Shown here: positions 8,186 to 17,902 of the stretch, piece by piece
Layout: each line of letters starts with the position of its first letter
Numbering within the stretch: position 1 is the first letter of the stretch
Assembly (NCBI GenBank): GCA_023423605.1
Contig: JAFAFF010000125.1
Coordinates: forward strand, 1-17,902
From: Pseudomonadota bacterium
GTDB lineage: Bacteria; Pseudomonadota; Gammaproteobacteria; Xanthomonadales; Xanthomonadaceae
Length of the DNA: 17,902 nucleotides
Reading direction: 5' to 3'
Translations under genes and position numbers: made by a program
The notes under the pieces: model-generated
The model's input: only the letters and a program-made list of their open reading frames with translations
What the model was told of the DNA's origin: nothing
The model's database searches: none

Positions 8186-8953
8186 ATGAACTTTGAATCG
8201 AAGACCGTCATCGTCACCGGCGCAGGCTCCGGGATCGGCGCGGCCACTGCACGCGCGTTCTCGAAGGCGGGCGCCAACGTTGTGCTGGCCGACCAGGATC
8301 CGGCGGAAGTCGCCGAACTTGCCGCTGCGCTGCCCAAGGAGCGCACGCTGGTACAGGAGGTCGATGTCAGCGATGGTGAACAGGTGCAGGCGCTGGTGGA
8401 TGCGACGGTGAAACGTTTTGGCGGCCTGGATGTGATCTACAACAACGCCGGCATCCTGGTGAAAGGCGCGCTGGAAAAGACCTCGCTGGATGACTGGAAC
8501 AGGATCATCGCGGTCAACCTGACCGGCGTGTTCCATGGCTGTCGTGCGGCATTGCCGGAACTGCGCAAGCGCAAGGGTTGCATCGTCAATACCGCATCGG
8601 TGTCGGGCTTGGCGGCCGATCGCGAAATGCCGGCCTACAACGCGGTGAAAGGGGCGGTCGCCAATCTTACCCGTGCACTGGCGATCGACAACGGCCGGCA
8701 TGGCGTACGCGTCAACGCGGTATGCCCGACCTTCACCCGTACCGGCATGACGGCGGAGATGGAGGAAGACAAGGCGACCGTGAAGACTTTCCTCGACCGC
8801 ATTCCGATGGGGCGGCTGGGCGAGCCGGAAGACATCGCCCGGGCGGTGCTGTTCCTGGCCAGCGATCAGGCCGGTTTCATCACCGGGGTAAACCTGCCGG
8901 TGGATGGTGGCGTCACCGCATCGAACGGACAACCCTTGTTCGAAGGCGCGTAA
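8186..8953 (+). CDS. SDR family NAD(P)-dependent oxidoreductase
   Basis: A 255-residue classical short-chain dehydrogenase, cytoplasmic, on a Rossmann fold. Visible motifs are TGAGSGIG (11-18) for cofactor binding, Asp36 at the end of the second strand (favours NAD over NADP), NNAG (86-89), the catalytic Ser138 in TASVSG, and Tyr151 and Lys155 in YNAVK. VNAVCPTFTRTGM and the C-terminal FITGVNLPVDGG are typical of the family. The start at 8186 has a very strong AAGGAGG site, although the frame is open far upstream through unrelated sequence. The gene appears monocistronic, with 65 bases before the lexA start. The substrate cannot be read from sequence; many such proteins are annotated as glucose or 3-oxoacyl dehydrogenases. 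Confidence 0.9.
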   Translation: MNFESKTVIVTGAGSGIGAATARAFSKAGANVVLADQDPAEVAELAAALPKERTLVQEVDVSDGEQVQALVDATVKRFGGLDVIYNNAGILVKGALEKTSLDDWNRIIAVNLTGVFHGCRAALPELRKRKGCIVNTASVSGLAADREMPAYNAVKGAVANLTRALAIDNGRHGVRVNAVCPTFTRTGMTAEMEEDKATVKTFLDRIPMGRLGEPEDIARAVLFLASDQAGFITGVNLPVDGGVTASNGQPLFEGA

Positions 8954-9000
8954 GCAGAGAGTTACCTGAACCACCAGGCTGTCGCTTTTCTGCAAGCGTG

Positions 9001-9018
9001 GGTGTACAAATGTACACC
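9001..9018. promoter_or_regulatory. LexA2 operator (SOS box) overlapping the -10 region
   Basis: GGTGTACAAATGTACACC is a perfect palindrome with 8-bp arms and a 2-base centre. It contains TGTACAAATGTACA, the form I associate with LexA2-type proteins in Xanthomonas. TACAAA inside it (9005-9010) resembles a -10 box, so LexA2 bound here would block RNA polymerase. The palindrome ends one base before the ATG at 9019. A -35 element at about 8982-8987 (TCGCTT) is weak. Confidence 0.85.
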
Positions 9019-9624
9019 ATGGATTCCATCGACCTCCCTCCTCAACGTGCCGCGGTGCTGGCCTGGGTGCGACAGGCGCTTGCTTCAGGCCAGTCGCCCA
9101 GCTTGGCCGACATCGCCAATGCCTTCGGTTTTGCTTCGCGCAATGCCGCGCAGAAACATGTGCAGGCCTTGCTGGATGCCGGTTTGCTGGAGCAGGCGGC
9201 GGGCCGCAAGCGCGGCCTGCGGCTGCCGGGCGGCACGGCCGAACTGCTGCCGCTGGCGGTGCTGGGACGGGTAGCGGCCGGCCAGCCCATCGGCGCGGAT
9301 ATCGGCCTGGACCAGCAGCTGTGGCTGGACCGCCGGATGTTTTCGCCGCGGCCGGACTACCTGCTGAAAGTGCAGGGCGATTCGATGATCGACGATGGCA
9401 TCCTCGATGGTGACCTGGTCGGCGTGCACCGCACATCCAGCGCACGCGACGGGCAGACGGTGGTGGCGCGCATCGATGGTGAACTGACCATCAAGCGCTT
9501 GCAGCAGACTGCCGGCAGCCTGCGCCTGCTGCCACGCAATCCGGCGCATGCGCCGATCGAGATCGCTCCCGGACAGGATTTCGCCGTGGAAGGCGTGTAC
9601 TGCGGCCTGGTGCGGCAGGGTTGA
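9019..9624 (+). CDS. lexA: LexA repressor (LexA2 type)
   Basis: A 201-residue SOS repressor. The winged-helix DNA-binding domain covers about residues 8-70 (SPSLADIANAFGFASRNAAQ). The self-cleavage bond is Ala87-Gly88 in GRVAAGQP. The S24-type protease dyad is Ser122 in GDSM and Lys159 in ELTIKRL. RecA filaments on single-stranded DNA trigger the cleavage. It heads the imuA-imuB-dnaE2 operon, with imuA starting one base after its stop. The recognition part differs from the usual LexA1, in keeping with the GTAC-type operator. ATG 9019 lies directly next to the operator. An in-frame ATG at 9010 inside the operator would add MYT but seems less likely. No ribosome site precedes either, which suggests a leaderless message. 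Confidence 0.94.
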   Translation: MDSIDLPPQRAAVLAWVRQALASGQSPSLADIANAFGFASRNAAQKHVQALLDAGLLEQAAGRKRGLRLPGGTAELLPLAVLGRVAAGQPIGADIGLDQQLWLDRRMFSPRPDYLLKVQGDSMIDDGILDGDLVGVHRTSSARDGQTVVARIDGELTIKRLQQTAGSLRLLPRNPAHAPIEIAPGQDFAVEGVYCGLVRQG

Positions 9625-9625
9625 G

Positions 9626-10249
9626 ATGAACGTCGCGCCGGACCTGCAGCAGCTGTTGGCCAGCCAGACCCTGTGGCATGCCGGACGTGGCAGCGCATCG
9701 GGCGTGGCCGGCGAGCCCACCGGGCATGCCGCGCTGGATGCGCTGCTGCCCCAGGGCGGGTGGCCGCGTCGGGCGCTGACCGAACTGCTTCTGCCGGTGG
9801 ATGGAACAGGTGAACTGCAGTTGCTGCTGCCCACGCTGGCGCGCCTCAGCCGCTCCGGTGCCGCCGTGGCGGTGATCGCGCCACCCTATATTCCGTATGC
9901 GCCGGCCTGGCAGGCGGCAGGCGTGGCATTGGAGCAGCTGCAGTTCATCGATGCCTCGCCTCGTGATGCATTGTGGGCGTTTGAACAGTGCCTGCGCAGT
10001 GGTGCCTGCGCGGCCGTGCTGGGCTGGCCCCGGCAGGCCGATGCACAGGCATTGCGCCGCCTGCAGGTGGCTGCCGACAGCGGGCACTGCCTGGGCTTTG
10101 CCGTGCGCGAGCGGCGGCACGCGGGCAACCCTTCGCCTGCCGCGCTGCGCCTGGAAGCGATACGGCAGGGGGATTGCACCCAGTGGCAGGTACGCAAGTG
10201 CCGCGGTGGTCCCGCACCGGCGCAGCTCTTTGCGATGAGGGCCGGGTGA
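9626..10249 (+). CDS. imuA: ImuA, translesion synthesis accessory protein
   Basis: A 207-residue member of the ImuA/RecA-like group in the SOS mutagenesis cassette. The N-terminal part PTGHAALDALLPQGGWPRRALTELL aligns in pattern with the start of the RecA core (LDxxLPxGGxPRG...E). A standard Walker A motif GxxxxGK[ST] is not evident, as in other ImuA proteins. ImuA is thought to interact with ImuB and RecA and to help DnaE2 reach damaged templates. The ATG lies one base after the lexA stop codon (TGAgATG), so coupled translation is likely. The order lexA-imuA-imuB-dnaE2 leaves little doubt about identity, although the protein sequence itself is weakly conserved. Confidence 0.9.
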   Translation: MNVAPDLQQLLASQTLWHAGRGSASGVAGEPTGHAALDALLPQGGWPRRALTELLLPVDGTGELQLLLPTLARLSRSGAAVAVIAPPYIPYAPAWQAAGVALEQLQFIDASPRDALWAFEQCLRSGACAAVLGWPRQADAQALRRLQVAADSGHCLGFAVRERRHAGNPSPAALRLEAIRQGDCTQWQVRKCRGGPAPAQLFAMRAG

Positions 10250-10258
10250 GGCGCGCCG

Positions 10259-11677
10259 ATGCTCTGGGCCTGTGTCGCACTGCCGCAGCTGGCGCTGGAT
10301 GCCGTCCTTCGCCGTCATCCTGATCCGGACACGCCGCTGGCGCTGGTCGGTGGCCCGGCGCAGCTGCGCACCCTGCATGCGGTGAATGCGGCCGCCGCCG
10401 CTGCCGGGTTGCAGGCGGGCATGCGCCTGACCGCGGCACTGGCCCTGCTGCCGGATTTCCAGAAGGTGGAACACGATGCGCAGGCCGAGCCGCGCTGGCA
10501 GCGTTTCCTGGCGGGCTGGGCCTACCGCCACAGCTCGCTGGTCAGCGCGCAGTGGCCGCGTTGCATCCTGCTGGAAGTGCGCGCCAGCTTCCGCCTGCTG
10601 GGGCCGTGGACAGTGCTGCAGGCGCGCCTGCGCGAAGAACTGCAGTCGCTGGGTTTCCAGCATCGCATCGCACTGGCACCGACACCGCGTGCAGCCATGG
10701 TGCTGGCAGGGCTGCGCGATGGCATGGCGGTGGATGAACTGCCGGCCCTGCATGACCTGCTGGACCGCGTGCCGGTGCGCCGTGCCCGGCTGCCGGACGA
10801 CACCGGGCAGCGGCTGTGGCAGATGGGCATCGCCGACCTGCGCGCGCTGCGTGCACTGCCGCGCGACGGCCTGCGCCGACGCTTCGGCCTGCCCCTACTG
10901 GAGCACCTGGACCGTCTGTATGGTGATGTGGATGAGCCGTTGGCCTGGTATGCGCCGCCGGACCACTTCGATTCCCGCGTGGAACTGGGGTACGAAGTGG
11001 AAAACCACATGGCGCTGCTGTTCCCGCTGCGCCGGCTCATCGGCGACCTGTGCACCTGCCTGAGCATCCGCGACGGCGGCGTGCAGCGCTTCGTGCTGCG
11101 GCTGGAACATGAGCAGGGCCATACCAACGTGGACGTAGGGCTGCTGGCCGCCGAACGCGATGCGGCATTGCTGTTCGAACTCACCCGCAACCGCCTGGAG
11201 CGCACGAGCATCGACCAGCCCGTGGTGGCCGTGCGCCTGCTGGCCCGTGAACTACCGGCCTTCGTGCCTGCCAGTCGCGATCTGTTCGATATCCGCAACC
11301 AGCAGCAGTTGCCATGGCCGCAACTGCGCGAACGGTTGCGCGCGCGGCTGGGCGATGCATCGGTCTACCGCGTGGCACCGGCGGGCGATCCACGTCCGGA
11401 ACGTGCCTGGCTGCGCGTGGAAGCTGATGGCGTGGCGATTCCCAAGGCCCCCCGGCGCCCGCCGCGCCCCGCCTGGCTGCTGCCGGCGCCCGTTCCCCTG
11501 CGTGATCCACGCGCACGCATCGTGTCCGGGCCGGAGCGCCTGGAAAGCGGCTGGTGGGATGGCCAGGACGCGCGTCGCGATTACTACGTGCTGGAAACCC
11601 GCCATGGGCAGCATGCCTGGGCGTTCGCGGCCCCGGGCCGGCAGGGCGACTGGATGCTGCATGGATGGTTCGCATGA
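10259..11677 (+). CDS. imuB: ImuB, inactive Y-family polymerase-like protein
   Basis: A 472-residue homologue of Y-family DNA polymerases that acts as a scaffold and not as an enzyme. The start [19 protein letters not shown] replaces the first catalytic Asp region of Pol IV (hhhDxDxF). The second acidic site (SxDE) is also lost: [19 protein letters not shown]. The HhH-like part [19 protein letters not shown] lies near residues 185-205. After residue 340 a C-terminal ImuB tail contains QQQLPWPQL, a candidate beta-clamp binding motif. ImuB is known to bind the clamp and to recruit DnaE2. It starts 9 bases after imuA and overlaps dnaE2 by four bases (ATGA). Length fits the family. Confidence 0.93.
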
Positions 11678-14600
11678 GCTGCGAAGAATCACGCATCGAG
11701 TCGCCCGGTGGGCGCATGCCACGTGCCTGGGAAACCGCGCAGCGGTTGGCGGCCGCCAACGATGACGTGGTGGACGAACAGGATCTGCCCGCCTATGCCG
11801 AGCTGCATTGCCTGTCCGATTTTTCATTCCTGCGCGGTGCCGCCAGCGCCGAGGCGCTGTTCGCGCGTGCACAGCAATGCGGTTATGAAGCACTGGCGAT
11901 CACCGATGAGTGTTCGCTGGCCGGCATCGTGCGTGCACTGGAAGCCTCGCGCGCGACCGGCCTGGCGTTGATCGTCGGCAGCGAGTTCACGCTGGAATGC
12001 GGCCTGAAACTGGTGTTGCTGGTGGAAACCCATGCCGGTTACGTACACCTGTGCGAACTGATCACCAGCGGTCGCCGTGCTGCGCAGAAGGGCCGGTACC
12101 GGCTGTCGCGACAGGATGTGGAGCGCGTGCTGGACACTGCCGATGGTGAAGCGTCGGGTCTGTTCGCCCTGTGGGTGCCCGGCCCGCAGCCGGATGCTGC
12201 GCAGGCGCACTGGATGCAGCAGGTGTTTCCGCGACGTACATGGCTGGCGGTGCACCTGCACCGGGAACAGGACGATGCGGCCTGGCTGGCGCAGTTGCTG
12301 GAACTGTCCAGGCAATTGGGAATTGATGCACTGGCCTGTGGCGACGTTCACATGGACGTGCGTCGCCGCCGCATCCTGCAGGACACCATGACCGCCATCC
12401 GCCATGGCCTGCCCCTGGCCGAATGCGGGGCGCACCTGTTCCGCAATGGCGAGCGCCACCTGCGCAGCCGACGCGCGCTGGGCAATATCCATCCGCCGGT
12501 GCTGCTACGGAACGCGGTGCAGCTGGCGCGGCGCTGCCATTTCCGCATGGAACAGGTGCAGTACCACTACCCGGCCGAACTGGTGCCTGGCGGCCATACG
12601 CCCAGCAGCTGGCTGCGTGAGCTCACCCTGCGTGGCATGCGCGAGCACTGGCCGGAGGGCACGCCCGAAGACGTGGCCAGACGGATCGATGAGGAACTGG
12701 CGCTGATCGCGAAGCTGGAATACGAGGCCTTCTTCCTTACCGTGGAAGACATCGTGCGTTTCGCGAAATCGCGCGGCATCCTCTGCCAGGGGCGTGGTTC
12801 ATCGGCCAATTCGGCGGTGTGCTTCGCGCTGGGAATCACGGTGGTCAACCCGGCCGAGAGTCGCCTGCTGATGGCGCGCTTCCTGTCCGAACAACGCAAC
12901 GAGCCACCCGACATCGACGTGGATTTCGAGCACGAGCGGCGTGAGGAAGTGCTGCAGTACGTGTACGGGAAATATGGACGCGAACGCGCGGCGCTGGCGG
13001 CCACGGTGATCCGTTATCGAGGCAAGAGCGCGGTGCGCGATGTCGGCAAGGCCTTCGGGCTGCCGCCGGACCAGGTCGCGTTGCTGGCCGAATGCCATGG
13101 CTGGGGGAACGGTGAAACACCGATGGAGCAGCGCCTGGCCGAGGCCGGATTCGACGCCGGCAATCCGTTGCTGCGGCAGGTGCTGGAGGTAAGCGGACAG
13201 CTGCGTGGCCATCCACGGCACCTGTCGCAGCACGTAGGCGGTTTCGTCATCAACGGCGCGCCGTTGAGCACGGTGGTGCCGGTGGAAAACGCCGCCATGG
13301 ACGACCGCACCATCATCCAGTGGGACAAGGACGATCTGGAAACCATGCGGATGCTCAAGGTCGATTGCCTGGCCCTGGGCATGCTGACCTGCATCCGCAA
13401 GGCGATCGAGCTGGTGGAGCGGCATCGCGGTCATCGCATCGATATCGCGCGCTTGCCGACCGACGACAGGGATACGTTCGCGATGATCCAGCTCGCCGAT
13501 ACGGTGGGTGTGTTCCAGATTGAATCGCGCGCGCAGATGACGATGCTGCCGCGGCTGAAACCGAAGCGTTTCTACGATCTGGTGATCCAGGTGGCGATCG
13601 TGCGGCCCGGGCCGATCCAGGGCGGTATGGTGCATCCGTTCCTGCGCCGCCGGCAGGGCCAGGAGCCGGTCACCTATCCCTCCGAAGGCATCGAAGGAAT
13701 TCTTGGAAATACGCTGGGCATTCCGCTGTTCCAGGAACAGGTGATGGAGCTGGTGATGCATGCGGGGTACACGCCGGACGAGGCCGATCAGTTGCGGCGT
13801 TCGATGGCGGCCTGGCGCAGCGGGGGGGATATGGACAGCCATCGCGAACGTATCCGCGAAAAGATGAAGGGCAAGGGTTATGCGGATGAGTTCATCGAAC
13901 AGATCTTCGAACAGATCAAGGGTTTCGGTGCCTACGGCTTCCCGCAGAGTCATGCGGCATCCTTCGCCAAACTGGTCTATATCAGCTGCTACCTGAAGCG
14001 GCATGAGCCTGCCGCATTCGCCTGCGCCCTGCTCAACGCCCAACCGATGGGCTTCTATTCGGCCAGCCAGATCGTGCAGGACGCACGACGCGGTAGCCGC
14101 GAGCGCGCAGGCGTGGACGTGTTGCCGGTGGATGTCTGCATCAGCGACTGGGACAACACGCTGGAAGGTGGCAATGCCGATACGCAGCCAGCCATCCGCC
14201 TGGGACTGCGGCAACTGGCGGGCTGCAGCGAAACGGCGGCGCGCGCGATCGTGGCCGCGCGGGCGCAGCGCCCCTTCAGCGATGTCGCCGACCTGTGCCG
14301 ACGCGCGCGACTGGAGGGCAAGGTCCGGCAGGCACTTGCCGATGGCGGCGCGCTGTCGGCGCTGGCCGGCAACCGCAATGCCGCGCGCTGGGCGGTGGCC
14401 GGCATCGAGCAGGCGGTTCCGTTGTTGCCCGGCAGCCCGGCCGAGGACGCCGTGGTGCTGCCAGCGCCCGTTGCGGCCGAAGAAATGCTGTCCGATTATC
14501 GCATGAGTGGCCTCACCCTGGGGCCTCATCCCCTGGCGCTGCTGCGGCCACAGCTGCAGCGCGAGCGCGCGCTGGATTCGCGCCAGCTGCGTGGGTTGCC

Positions 14601-14889
14601 GCATGGGCGGGGCGTGCACACCATCGGCCTGGTCACCCAGCGGCAGCGACCGGGGACCGCCCACGGCACCATCTTCGTCACGCTGGAAGACGAATACGGC
14701 ATGGTCAACGTCGTGGTCTGGTCGCATCTTGCGCTGCGTCGGCGCAAGGCCCTGCTCGGATCGCGGTTGCTGGGGGTACGCGGGCGCTGGGAATGCGTGG
14801 ATGGCGTACAGCACCTGATTGCCGGCGACCTGCGTGATTACAGCCATCTGCTGCAGGGCCTGAGCGCGCCCTCGCGCGATTTCCGCTAG
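11674..14889 (+). CDS. dnaE2: Error-prone DNA polymerase DnaE2
   Basis: A 1071-residue C-family polymerase that extends DNA past lesions during the SOS response. The N-terminal PHP domain begins with [14 protein letters not shown] (His45). The polymerase core holds the acidic cluster PPDIDVDF (Asp413, 415 and 417), [17 protein letters not shown] just before it, and [14 protein letters not shown] further on. [20 protein letters not shown] is also characteristic. A helix-hairpin-helix ([20 protein letters not shown]) lies near 845-870, and a C-terminal OB fold ([19 protein letters not shown]) covers about 975-1060. DnaE2 lacks an exonuclease partner site, so it is mutagenic. ATG 11674 overlaps the imuB stop; longer open frame to 11554 lies inside imuB. 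Last gene of the lexA operon. Confidence 0.96.
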
Positions 14890-15659: not shown

Positions 15660-17564
15660 ATGAGCCAGACCACTGCCGACGCCAGGCTCGACGCAGGCCT
15701 GGCGACGTTGCCGGGTGGCTCCCCGCTGGAGATGCCGGAACAGCAGCTGCACCGGGGTGCCCTGGAGGTGCCGCGGCACCGTACATCGCCACGCATGATC
15801 GGACTGCGTCGCGCCTATCTGTTCGGCGGCACCGCATTGATGACCTGCGTGGCCACGGTGATGATGTGGCGGGTGCTTTCGCCCAATGGCGTCAGCGTGC
15901 TGGAAGCGTGCCTGCTGGTGCTGTTCGTGGGCCTGTTCGGCTGGATCGCACTGGCCTTCGCCAGTGCGGTGGCCGGTTTCCTTACCGCTGTGTTCGACCG
16001 TGGCTACCGCCTGGGCATCGATCCCGACCAGCCGCTTCCGCAGTTGCATACCCGCACCGCGCTGCTGATGCCGACCTACAACGAAGATCCACGCCGGCTG
16101 CTGGCCGGCCTGCAGGCCATCCACGAATCGGTCGCGGCAACCGGGCAGATCGACAACTTCGATTTCTTCGTGCTCAGCGACACCCAGCGCGAGGATATCG
16201 GCCACGCCGAGGAACAGGCCTTCGCCGAACTGCGTGCCGCATTGGGTCCGGAGGCACGGCTGTTCTATCGTCGCCGGGCCGACAACAGTGGACGCAAGGC
16301 CGGCAACATCGCCGACTGGGTACGGCTTTTCGGCGGGGGGTATCCGCAGATGCTGATCCTGGACGCGGACAGCCTGATGACCGGCGACACCATCGTGCGG
16401 CTGGCCGCGGGCATGGAAAACAACCCGGATGTGGGCCTGATCCAGACCCTGCCGGTGGTGGTCGGCGGGCGTACCCTGTTCTCGCGCATGCAGCAGTTCG
16501 GTGGCCGGGTCTATGGTCCGGTGATCGCCCGTGGCGTGTCCTGGTGGCACGGCGCGGAAAGCAATTACTGGGGCCACAACGCGATCATCCGCACCGTTGC
16601 CTTTGCCGATCATGCAGGGCTGCCGGCGCTGCCGGGCCGCGAGCCGTTCGGCGGCCATGTGCTGAGCCACGATTTCGTCGAAGCGGCACTGATGCGGCGT
16701 GGCGGCTGGGCCGCGCACATGGTGCCGTACCTGAAGGGCAGCTACGAGGAAGGTCCGCCAACGTTGACCGACATGATGGTGCGTGACCGCCGCTGGTGCC
16801 AGGGCAACCTGCAGCACGGCAAGATCGTCGGCAGCAAGGGCCTGCACTGGATAAGCCGCGTGCACATGCTGATCGGCATCGGACACTACTTCACCGCGCC
16901 GATGTGGGCGATGCTGATGCTGATAGGCATTGCCATTCCACTGTTCCAGGAAGGCATCGATCTGAACGGTGTGCTGCACCTGTCGCCCAGCGTGTACTGG
17001 CGCACGCAGGACGAAATCCAGGTGGTGCGCCTGTTCGCCATCACCATGGCGGTGCTGTTGACGCCGAAGTTCCTGGGTTATCTGGCCACGCTGCTGGAAC
17101 CGGTGGATCGCCGTGGTTGCGGCGGCGCGTTGCGCATGTTCGTGGCGATGCTGCTGGAAACCCTGCTGGCGGCGCTGATGGCGCCGGTGGTGATGTACGT
17201 GCAGTCGCGCGGCGTGGCCGAAGTGCTGGCCGGCAAGGATTCCGGCTGGGACGCGCAGCAGCGCGACGATGGCGGCGTGGACTGGCTGGCGCTGGTGCGT
17301 GCCTACGGTGGGCTGAGCGTGTTCGGTGCCTTCATGGGGGTGCTGGCGTGGATGGTATCGCCGGCCCTGGCGGCCTGGATGTCTCCGGTGGTGGTCGGCA
17401 TGGTGCTGTCCATCCCGGTGGTGGCGCTGACGTCCTCGCGTGGGCCGGGCCGCTGGCTGCACCGGCTGCGGCTGCTCGACATCCCCGAGGAGCGCGACCC
17501 GCCGCAGGTGCTGGTGCGCGCCGCGGAACTGCGCCAGGCAGCGCTGTCCCGGCCACGCCCCTGA
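15660..17564 (+). CDS. mdoH: Glucans biosynthesis glucosyltransferase H (OpgH/MdoH)
   Basis: A 634-residue inner-membrane family 2 glucosyltransferase that builds the beta-1,2 glucan backbone of osmoregulated periplasmic glucans from UDP-glucose. Two helices (about 52-71 and 81-112) precede the catalytic domain: [15 protein letters not shown] (132-146), FFVLSDT, the metal-binding [10 protein letters not shown] (Asp235 and Asp237), [24 protein letters not shown] and RDRRWCQGN (375-383, the acceptor-site motif). Several membrane segments follow. The C-terminus [13 protein letters not shown] is conserved, but the protein stops soon afterwards. E. coli OpgH has about 847 residues, with longer tails at both ends. 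No mdoG lies upstream, as in xanthomonads, where the gene was also called hrpM. ATG 15660 has a GAGG site; GTG 15621 is possible. Confidence 0.95.
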
Positions 17565-17618
17565 AAAAAGGGGGACGGAGGCGGTTAATTCCAATTAACT
17601 GCCTCCGTCCCCTTTTTT
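17564..17618. terminator. Long bidirectional terminator / REP-like palindrome
   Basis: The arms 17564-17590 and 17593-17618 pair over about 26 bp around a CC loop. The order is A6, G5, ACGGAGGC, GTTAATT, then the complement ending in C4 and T6. The defects are one unpaired G and one G-T position. An A-run before and a T-run after make it an intrinsic terminator in both directions. It overlaps the last base of the mdoH stop codon. The GGGGACGGAGG...CCTCCGTCCCC core resembles dispersed palindromes that accompany REP-associated transposases; this part is inference. Confidence 0.85.
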
Positions 17619-17657
17619 CTGCGGGCATCCGGGGGCCGGTGCGGCTGCCGGTCACGG

Positions 17658-17690
17658 CATAATGCGGGCTGTCCTTGAAGGAACCGCATC
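17658..17690 (+). promoter_or_regulatory. Esterase leader: -10-like box and ribosome site
   Basis: CATAAT (17658-17663) resembles a -10 element about 28 bases before the ATG at 17691, and an AAGGA site (17678-17682) lies at normal spacing. No good -35 is visible. Confidence 0.4.
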
Positions 17691-17807
17691 ATGCTGCAGA
17701 CGGTGGAACAGGAAACCGGCGCATCGCCGCAGTGGTCGATCATCTGGCTGCACGGCCTGGGTGCCAATGGCCATGATTTCGCGCCCATCGTGCCGGACCT
17801 GGTGCGC
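17691..17807 (+). pseudogene. Carboxylesterase, N-terminal part (interrupted)
   Basis: ATG 17691 opens a frame of 39 family-like residues that includes WSIIWLHGLGANGHDFAPIV and PDLVR. This is the oxyanion-region start of the phospholipase/carboxylesterase group of alpha/beta hydrolases (AB hydrolase 2), usually about 220 residues. After codon 39 the frame stays open to the window edge, but the residues (HRVAVPFQVEAQ and so on) are not esterase-like. They are the reverse complement of the enzyme's own C-terminus. The nucleophile motif GFSQG is not seen. The gene is therefore inverted or chimeric at this point. Confidence 0.7.
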
Positions 17808-17902
17808 CATCGGGTAGCGGTGCCATTCCAGGTGGAAGCCCAGCTCCTTCAGCACCTGCATGCTGTGTTCGGCCACCTGCACCGGAATAACCGGGTCGGC
17901 GC
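17796..17902 (-). pseudogene. Carboxylesterase, C-terminal part on opposite strand
   Basis: Read on the - strand from the window edge, the frame gives ADPVIPVQVAEHSMQVL then KELGFHLEWHRYPMAHQV. This matches the end of the same AB hydrolase 2 family: the catalytic Asp in ADPVIP and the catalytic His in YPMAHQV. Family similarity stops after GTC (17798-17796), and the frame then runs nonsensically into the antisense of the N-terminal part. The last 12 bases, GCGCACCAGGTC, are the complement of the GACCTGGTGCGC coding DLVR on the + strand. Confidence 0.7.

Follow-up and report, generated by a model that had tools for sequence, protein, structure and literature searches.

A probably artefactual inverted join within a carboxylesterase gene at the end of a Stenotrophomonas-like sequence

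Intragenic invertons are, reportedly, invertible elements that are situated within genes. Inverted joins between neighboring pieces of DNA are also produced during amplification. In the available part of a study of MDA chimeras (PMC1855051), inverted joins are the commonest kind (406 of 475), the complementarity at the junctions extends up to 21 bp and is commoner when the joined segments lie less than 10 kb apart, and most of the chimeras are intramolecular. Library preparation can give rise to chimeric reads at inverted repeats; the PDSM model, in the portion of its description available (PMC10908179), explains these by partial single strands that come from a similar molecule and pair. The sequence described here, called the window, is a stretch of DNA of 17,902 nucleotides. 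Its last part holds two pieces of a carboxylesterase gene that are joined in opposite orientation.

The window and the two esterase pieces

The window is a piece of Stenotrophomonas-like chromosome. Pfam families identify a TetR-type regulator, a BCCT transporter, a glucose/sorbosone dehydrogenase-like protein, a trehalase and a short-chain dehydrogenase among its genes. The features with coordinates are the following.

about 8578-14889, LexA-like repressor, a frame without assignment, IMS-family polymerase and DNA polymerase III alpha, in a row (Pfam)
15660..17564, + strand, mdoH/opgH-like glucan glucosyltransferase gene, intact (glycosyltransferase group 2 families in Pfam)
17570..17619, no strand, strong inverted repeat, then a T run, immediately downstream of mdoH (from the sequence)
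17691..17797, + strand, 5' part of a carboxylesterase gene, found after mdoH as usual (alignment to relatives)
17796..17808, no strand, junction zone, in which the N-site and the reverse-complemented C-site share a microhomology (comparison with 78 relatives)
17798..17902, - strand, piece of a carboxylesterase gene, residues 168-202, including the catalytic Asp and His; truncated at both ends

The row of genes at about 8578-14889 resembles a known mutasome block, which we take to be lexA-imuA-imuB-dnaE2, and the family-2 glycosyltransferase at 15660..17564 is presumably mdoH. The inverted repeat and T run at 17570..17619 have the appearance of a terminator and bear no relation to the fold; the core motif of this repeat has no further copy in the window. 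Other repeats were sought around the fold as candidates, and these came down to likenesses among GC-rich coding stretches and to the repeat behind mdoH. A tRNA scan found none, and a distant blastn search of a plasmid collection with 17600-17902 gave no match.

Starting with the ATG at 17691, the + strand translates up to 17807 as MLQTVEQETGASPQWSIIWLHGLGANGHDFAPIVPDLVR. This N-part aligns without gaps to residues 1-39 of intact Stenotrophomonas esterases, and its frame agrees with the relatives as far as 17797-17808. Past this zone, the + strand up to 17902 corresponds, in reverse complement, to a part of that esterase gene close to its 3' end. Read on the - strand, from 17900 down to 17796, it translates as ADPVIPVQVAEHSMQVLKELGFHLEWHRYPMAHQV, and this tail piece aligns gap-free to residues 168-202 of the intact esterases. 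The preliminary description had read the + strand as the N-terminus of an Abhydrolase_2 carboxylesterase and the - strand as the C-terminus of the same family with its catalytic Asp and His; the alignments largely bear out both assignments. Two intact esterases of relatives, when checked, belong to Pfam Abhydrolase_2 (PF02230) with E-values of 9.3e-44 and 1.2e-47. The family assignment of the pieces rests on the alignment to relatives, because the N fragment alone matches Abhydrolase_2 weakly (E 0.029, under the family cut-off) and the C fragment alone has no match in Pfam. A separate, intact esterase gene on the opposite strand was considered and rejected: the final 18-19 residues are missing from the - strand frame, which enters the complement of the N-part and is therefore not intact within the window.

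Protein comparisons refer to 186 full-length esterases (at least 200 aa) drawn from two overlapping sets, one made up of the best 120 of 7911 proteins, the other of the best 120 of 6226; 37 short proteins from a search with the fold-back frame were left out of this table. Codon 26 (17766-17768), about 30 bases before the join, encodes Asn in the window. Within the 186 proteins (best 120 of 7911 plus best 120 of 6226) this residue is Asp in 184 and Asn in one, P0100. The Asn may be a sequencing error near a contig end.

The intact locus in relatives and the junction zone

Eighty loci of relatives were fetched and 78 were used. The two that were dropped (L036 and L076) have no esterase in the stretch: their best matches to both pieces are 43-47%, and the stretches end 725 and 234 bases past the mdoH match. 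The intact gene expected in related genomes from the preliminary description was found in every locus used. In all 78, both esterase parts are on one strand and in one open frame of 215-225 aa, with the two pieces 493 or 499 bp apart, start to start. Compared with this intact locus, the second segment of the window is inverted and the middle of the gene is missing.

The junction is absent from the independent sequences that were searched, which comprise loci, proteins and viral contigs. In a wider set of 124 partly overlapping loci, 105 contain both parts, all 105 in the intact order, and none of the 105 has an inverted arrangement or a second orientation. A 212-base query was matched by 87 of 91 genomes of the genus, and none of the matches listed covers it in full. 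In one genome (G054), the match overran the 12-mer at the junction by 8 bases, and the locus there is the intact gene. A search with the fold-back frame found the 37 short proteins mentioned above, none of which covers more than 73% of it; the continuation seen in the window is absent from the seven that were inspected. The exact 34-base junction pattern occurs 0 times in viral contigs.

One of the loci (L021) lies on a contig titled Bacillus subtilis strain SK7B5. It carries an mdoH that is 81% identical to that of the window, together with the neighboring esterase. The contig therefore looks like mislabelled or contaminating Stenotrophomonas DNA.

The preliminary description placed the join at a 12-bp inverted repeat. 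A perfect repeat of this length is not supported. The 12-mer GACCTGGTGCGC is present in the window in a single copy, and its reverse complement is absent from the window. When the N-site is compared with the reverse-complemented C-site in the 78 relatives, 6-11 of the 12 positions agree; 11 agree in 4 relatives and all 12 in none. That the 12-mer belonged to a pair of repeats is something we infer, the window having one copy only. At the N-site, every one of the 78 relatives has A or G as the third base of the 12-mer; at the C-site, every one has C. The window has C at this position (17798), resulting in Asp36, where 184 of the 186 esterases (best 120 of 7911 plus best 120 of 6226) have Glu and none has Asp. 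Since the N-site of the relatives never has C as base three, Asp36 of the window probably comes from the C arm, and the Asp of PDLVR would then probably be a product of the join itself. C17798 fits the C arm alone, so that the simplest reading of the sequence is a strand switch, probably at 17797/17798, with 9-10 bp of microhomology after it.

The stretch common to both sites thus amounts to about 9-10 bp (17799-17808) plus GA. Within the intact gene of the 78 relatives, the longest exact inverted match spans 9-14 bp, and 26 of them have one of at least 12 bp. A match the size of that at the junction is thus ordinary in this gene, and no special site need be assumed for a microhomology this long. 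There are 14 places in the window within two mismatches of the 12-mer, compared to a mean of 5.07 in shuffled sequences.

Ancestry of mdoH, the tail and the N-part

The lineage of the window sequence is anchored by mdoH. Among the 78 loci, the mdoH genes nearest to that of the window are those of S. tumulicola, S. chelatiphaga and S. pennii, with nucleotide identities of 86.0-86.7%. Long stretches of these three species also have much of the window upstream of mdoH, whereas long stretches of strain SY1, S. nitritireducens and S. daejeonensis have only mdoH and the esterase in common with it. The tail has a different ancestry. Its 95 bases outside the 12-mer are 65.3% identical to S. tumulicola, 64.2% to S. 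chelatiphaga and 66.3% to S. pennii, but 91.6% identical to S. daejeonensis and 87.4% to both S. nitritireducens and SY1 (loci L053, L046 and L035). The mdoH genes of the latter three are 76.7-77.7% identical to that of the window. In pairs of relatives with mdoH identity of 84.5-88%, the tail region is 67% identical or less in 20 of 119, so that the low identity of the tail to the lineages near in mdoH is not decisive by itself. In pairs with mdoH identity of 79% or less, the tail region reaches 87% in 0 of 1447, the maximum being 85.3%. The high match of the tail to lineages distant in mdoH is, judged on these identities, without parallel among the pairs of relatives.

In terms of protein sequence, the tail is identical in 35 of 35 residues to six of the 186 esterases (best 120 of 7911 plus best 120 of 6226), all of the 221-223 aa type (P0078, P0081, P0082, P0087, P0094 and P0096). 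The best match to the N-part, 37 of 39 residues, is shared by 20 of the same 186; all 20 have the 219-aa spacing, match the tail in 18-22 of 35 residues, and are of another type than the six. The tail thus goes with the lineage of S. nitritireducens, S. daejeonensis and SY1, and mdoH with that of S. tumulicola. The tail and mdoH being of different lineages, DNA of two Stenotrophomonas lineages is therefore probably involved.

A clean change of lineage at the junction is only partly borne out, the N-part being ambiguous. It is 94.3% identical to SY1 and 93.3% to S. humi, the mdoH genes of which are 76.7 and 75.3% identical to that of the window, and identities of at least 93% occur in this region in only 2 of 1447 comparable pairs of relatives. 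The second half of the N-part (17741-17795) is nearest to SY1 (94.5%). The first half and the leader spacing are on the tumulicola/maltophilia side, as are the diagnostic sites 17684 and 17697, the only two that passed the cut-off in a comparison of 10 and 6 chosen loci. Gln3 occurs together with the 221-aa spacing in 5 of the 186 proteins (best 120 of 7911 plus best 120 of 6226), and a native mosaic gene that was truly folded back would therefore look alike. The lineage may change at the fold, or slightly before it within the N-part, and both forms are weighed below. A change inside the N-part may be due to real recombination or to assembly through a conserved stretch, and the fold would then be within one gene.

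Origin of the join and comparison with known systems

The join is very probably an artefact at the end of a contig, which is itself probably metagenomic; this estimate covers both forms of the change in lineage. As far as mdoH and the beginning of the esterase gene, the sequence would be correct. There, over some 10 bp of microhomology, it would switch to the opposite strand of an esterase gene near the 3' end, and it stops about 95 bases past the junction zone, where the end of the window would be the end of the contig. The likely route is a chimeric molecule from amplification or library preparation, in which a 3' end anneals at a short complementary stretch and is extended. One or a few chimeric reads could have become the tip of the contig at a gap in coverage. 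A fold-back chimera was one of two possibilities offered by the preliminary description, and it has gained from the present data: the frame is intact in all 78 relatives, the junction resembles those of the chimeras in the available part of PMC1855051, the sequence ends soon after the join, and the ancestry of the tail disagrees with that of mdoH. Some points weigh against this reading. The N-part does not fall entirely within the lineage of mdoH, and the form that combines two lineages requires two molecules, although MDA chimeras are mostly intramolecular in the account consulted (PMC1855051).

The artefact could instead have formed by fold-back within a single molecule, a form that lies inside the estimate just given and that we regard as possible, if on balance doubtful. 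The organism's esterase would be of the nitritireducens/SY1 type through past recombination near the start of the gene, the template would have folded between the two sites, and the disagreement with mdoH would reflect real evolution and not mixing of DNA. The unusual closeness of the N-part to SY1 and S. humi points in this direction, as do the five proteins with Gln3 and the 221-aa spacing, and inverted chimeras are favored intramolecularly according to the available part of PMC1855051. However, the leader spacing fits the tumulicola/maltophilia side, as do both diagnostic sites, and among the 186 proteins (best 120 of 7911 plus best 120 of 6226) an N-part match of 37 is never accompanied by a tail match above 22. 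Furthermore, the 1447 distant pairs are without such discordance in the tail region.

Inversion within the gene, which the preliminary description had put forward as a possible phase switch, is very unlikely. The cell would then have inverted the 483-489 bp between the two sites, either reversibly or for good, leaving the esterase switched off. The order of the N-part, the junction and the reverse complement of the segment preceding the C-site is exactly that of the left border of an inversion, and invertible elements inside genes have reportedly been described (Chanin et al. 2024, as cited in PMC11868660). Nevertheless, the arms are imperfect in the relatives, the second border would be outside the window, none of the 105 loci has an inverted copy, and no recombinase family was found in the 12 gene frames of the window that were scanned with Pfam, 3 of which have no family at all; a recombinase gene usually, though not necessarily, lies near such an element. 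The ancestry of the tail is also unexpected for an inversion. With regard to a single gene copy as the origin of both sides, the tail is discordant with mdoH (a match as high in 0 of 1447 comparable pairs) and the N-part is itself ambiguous. The narrower claim, that a real and reversible inversion with arms of about 10 bp has switched off the enzyme in an uncultured Stenotrophomonas, is slightly less probable still. If the inversion were real, its arms would be unusually short for one inside a gene. The least probable of the readings is a real, fixed rearrangement, in which a second, horizontally acquired esterase gene lies in the opposite orientation to the first, each of the two copies ending prematurely at their meeting point. 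This would account for the different ancestry of the tail, but the two breaks would have to coincide with about 10 bp of inverted homology common to both genes. No such arrangement is present in the 105 loci, and no mobile element was apparent around the junction when the sequence was read by eye.

If the join is an artefact, which is the likely case, it serves as a small warning: a contig can end in a reversed fragment of a homologous gene, possibly from another lineage, that mimics a phase switch. Such a join can be tested without reads by asking whether each of its sides shares the ancestry of the neighboring gene.

The locus resembles the MDA inverted chimeras of PMC1855051, in the part of that report available, in having an inverted join, a missing middle, short complementarity and sites that are close to each other (about 0.5 kb); the likeness lies in the form of the junction. 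It differs from them in that the two sides of the join seem to be of different ancestry, whereas the chimeras described there are mostly intramolecular. With the chimeras of the PDSM model it shares the joining at inverted repeats, but these, in the portion of PMC10908179 available, are chimeric reads from human capture libraries, and the join in the window is seen in an assembled contig. The geometry of an inversion within a coding sequence is common to the window and the intragenic invertons that Chanin et al. 2024 reportedly describe. Unlike those elements, the window has no conserved pair of arms, second border, recombinase family or observed second orientation, and its tail is discordant in ancestry. 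A further counterpart is the Abhydrolase_2 carboxylesterase (PF02230; 219-222 aa) encoded downstream of mdoH in Stenotrophomonas and Xanthomonas, to which both pieces align gap-free. This esterase is intact in 78 of 78 relatives, whereas the window carries two pieces of it in opposite orientation.
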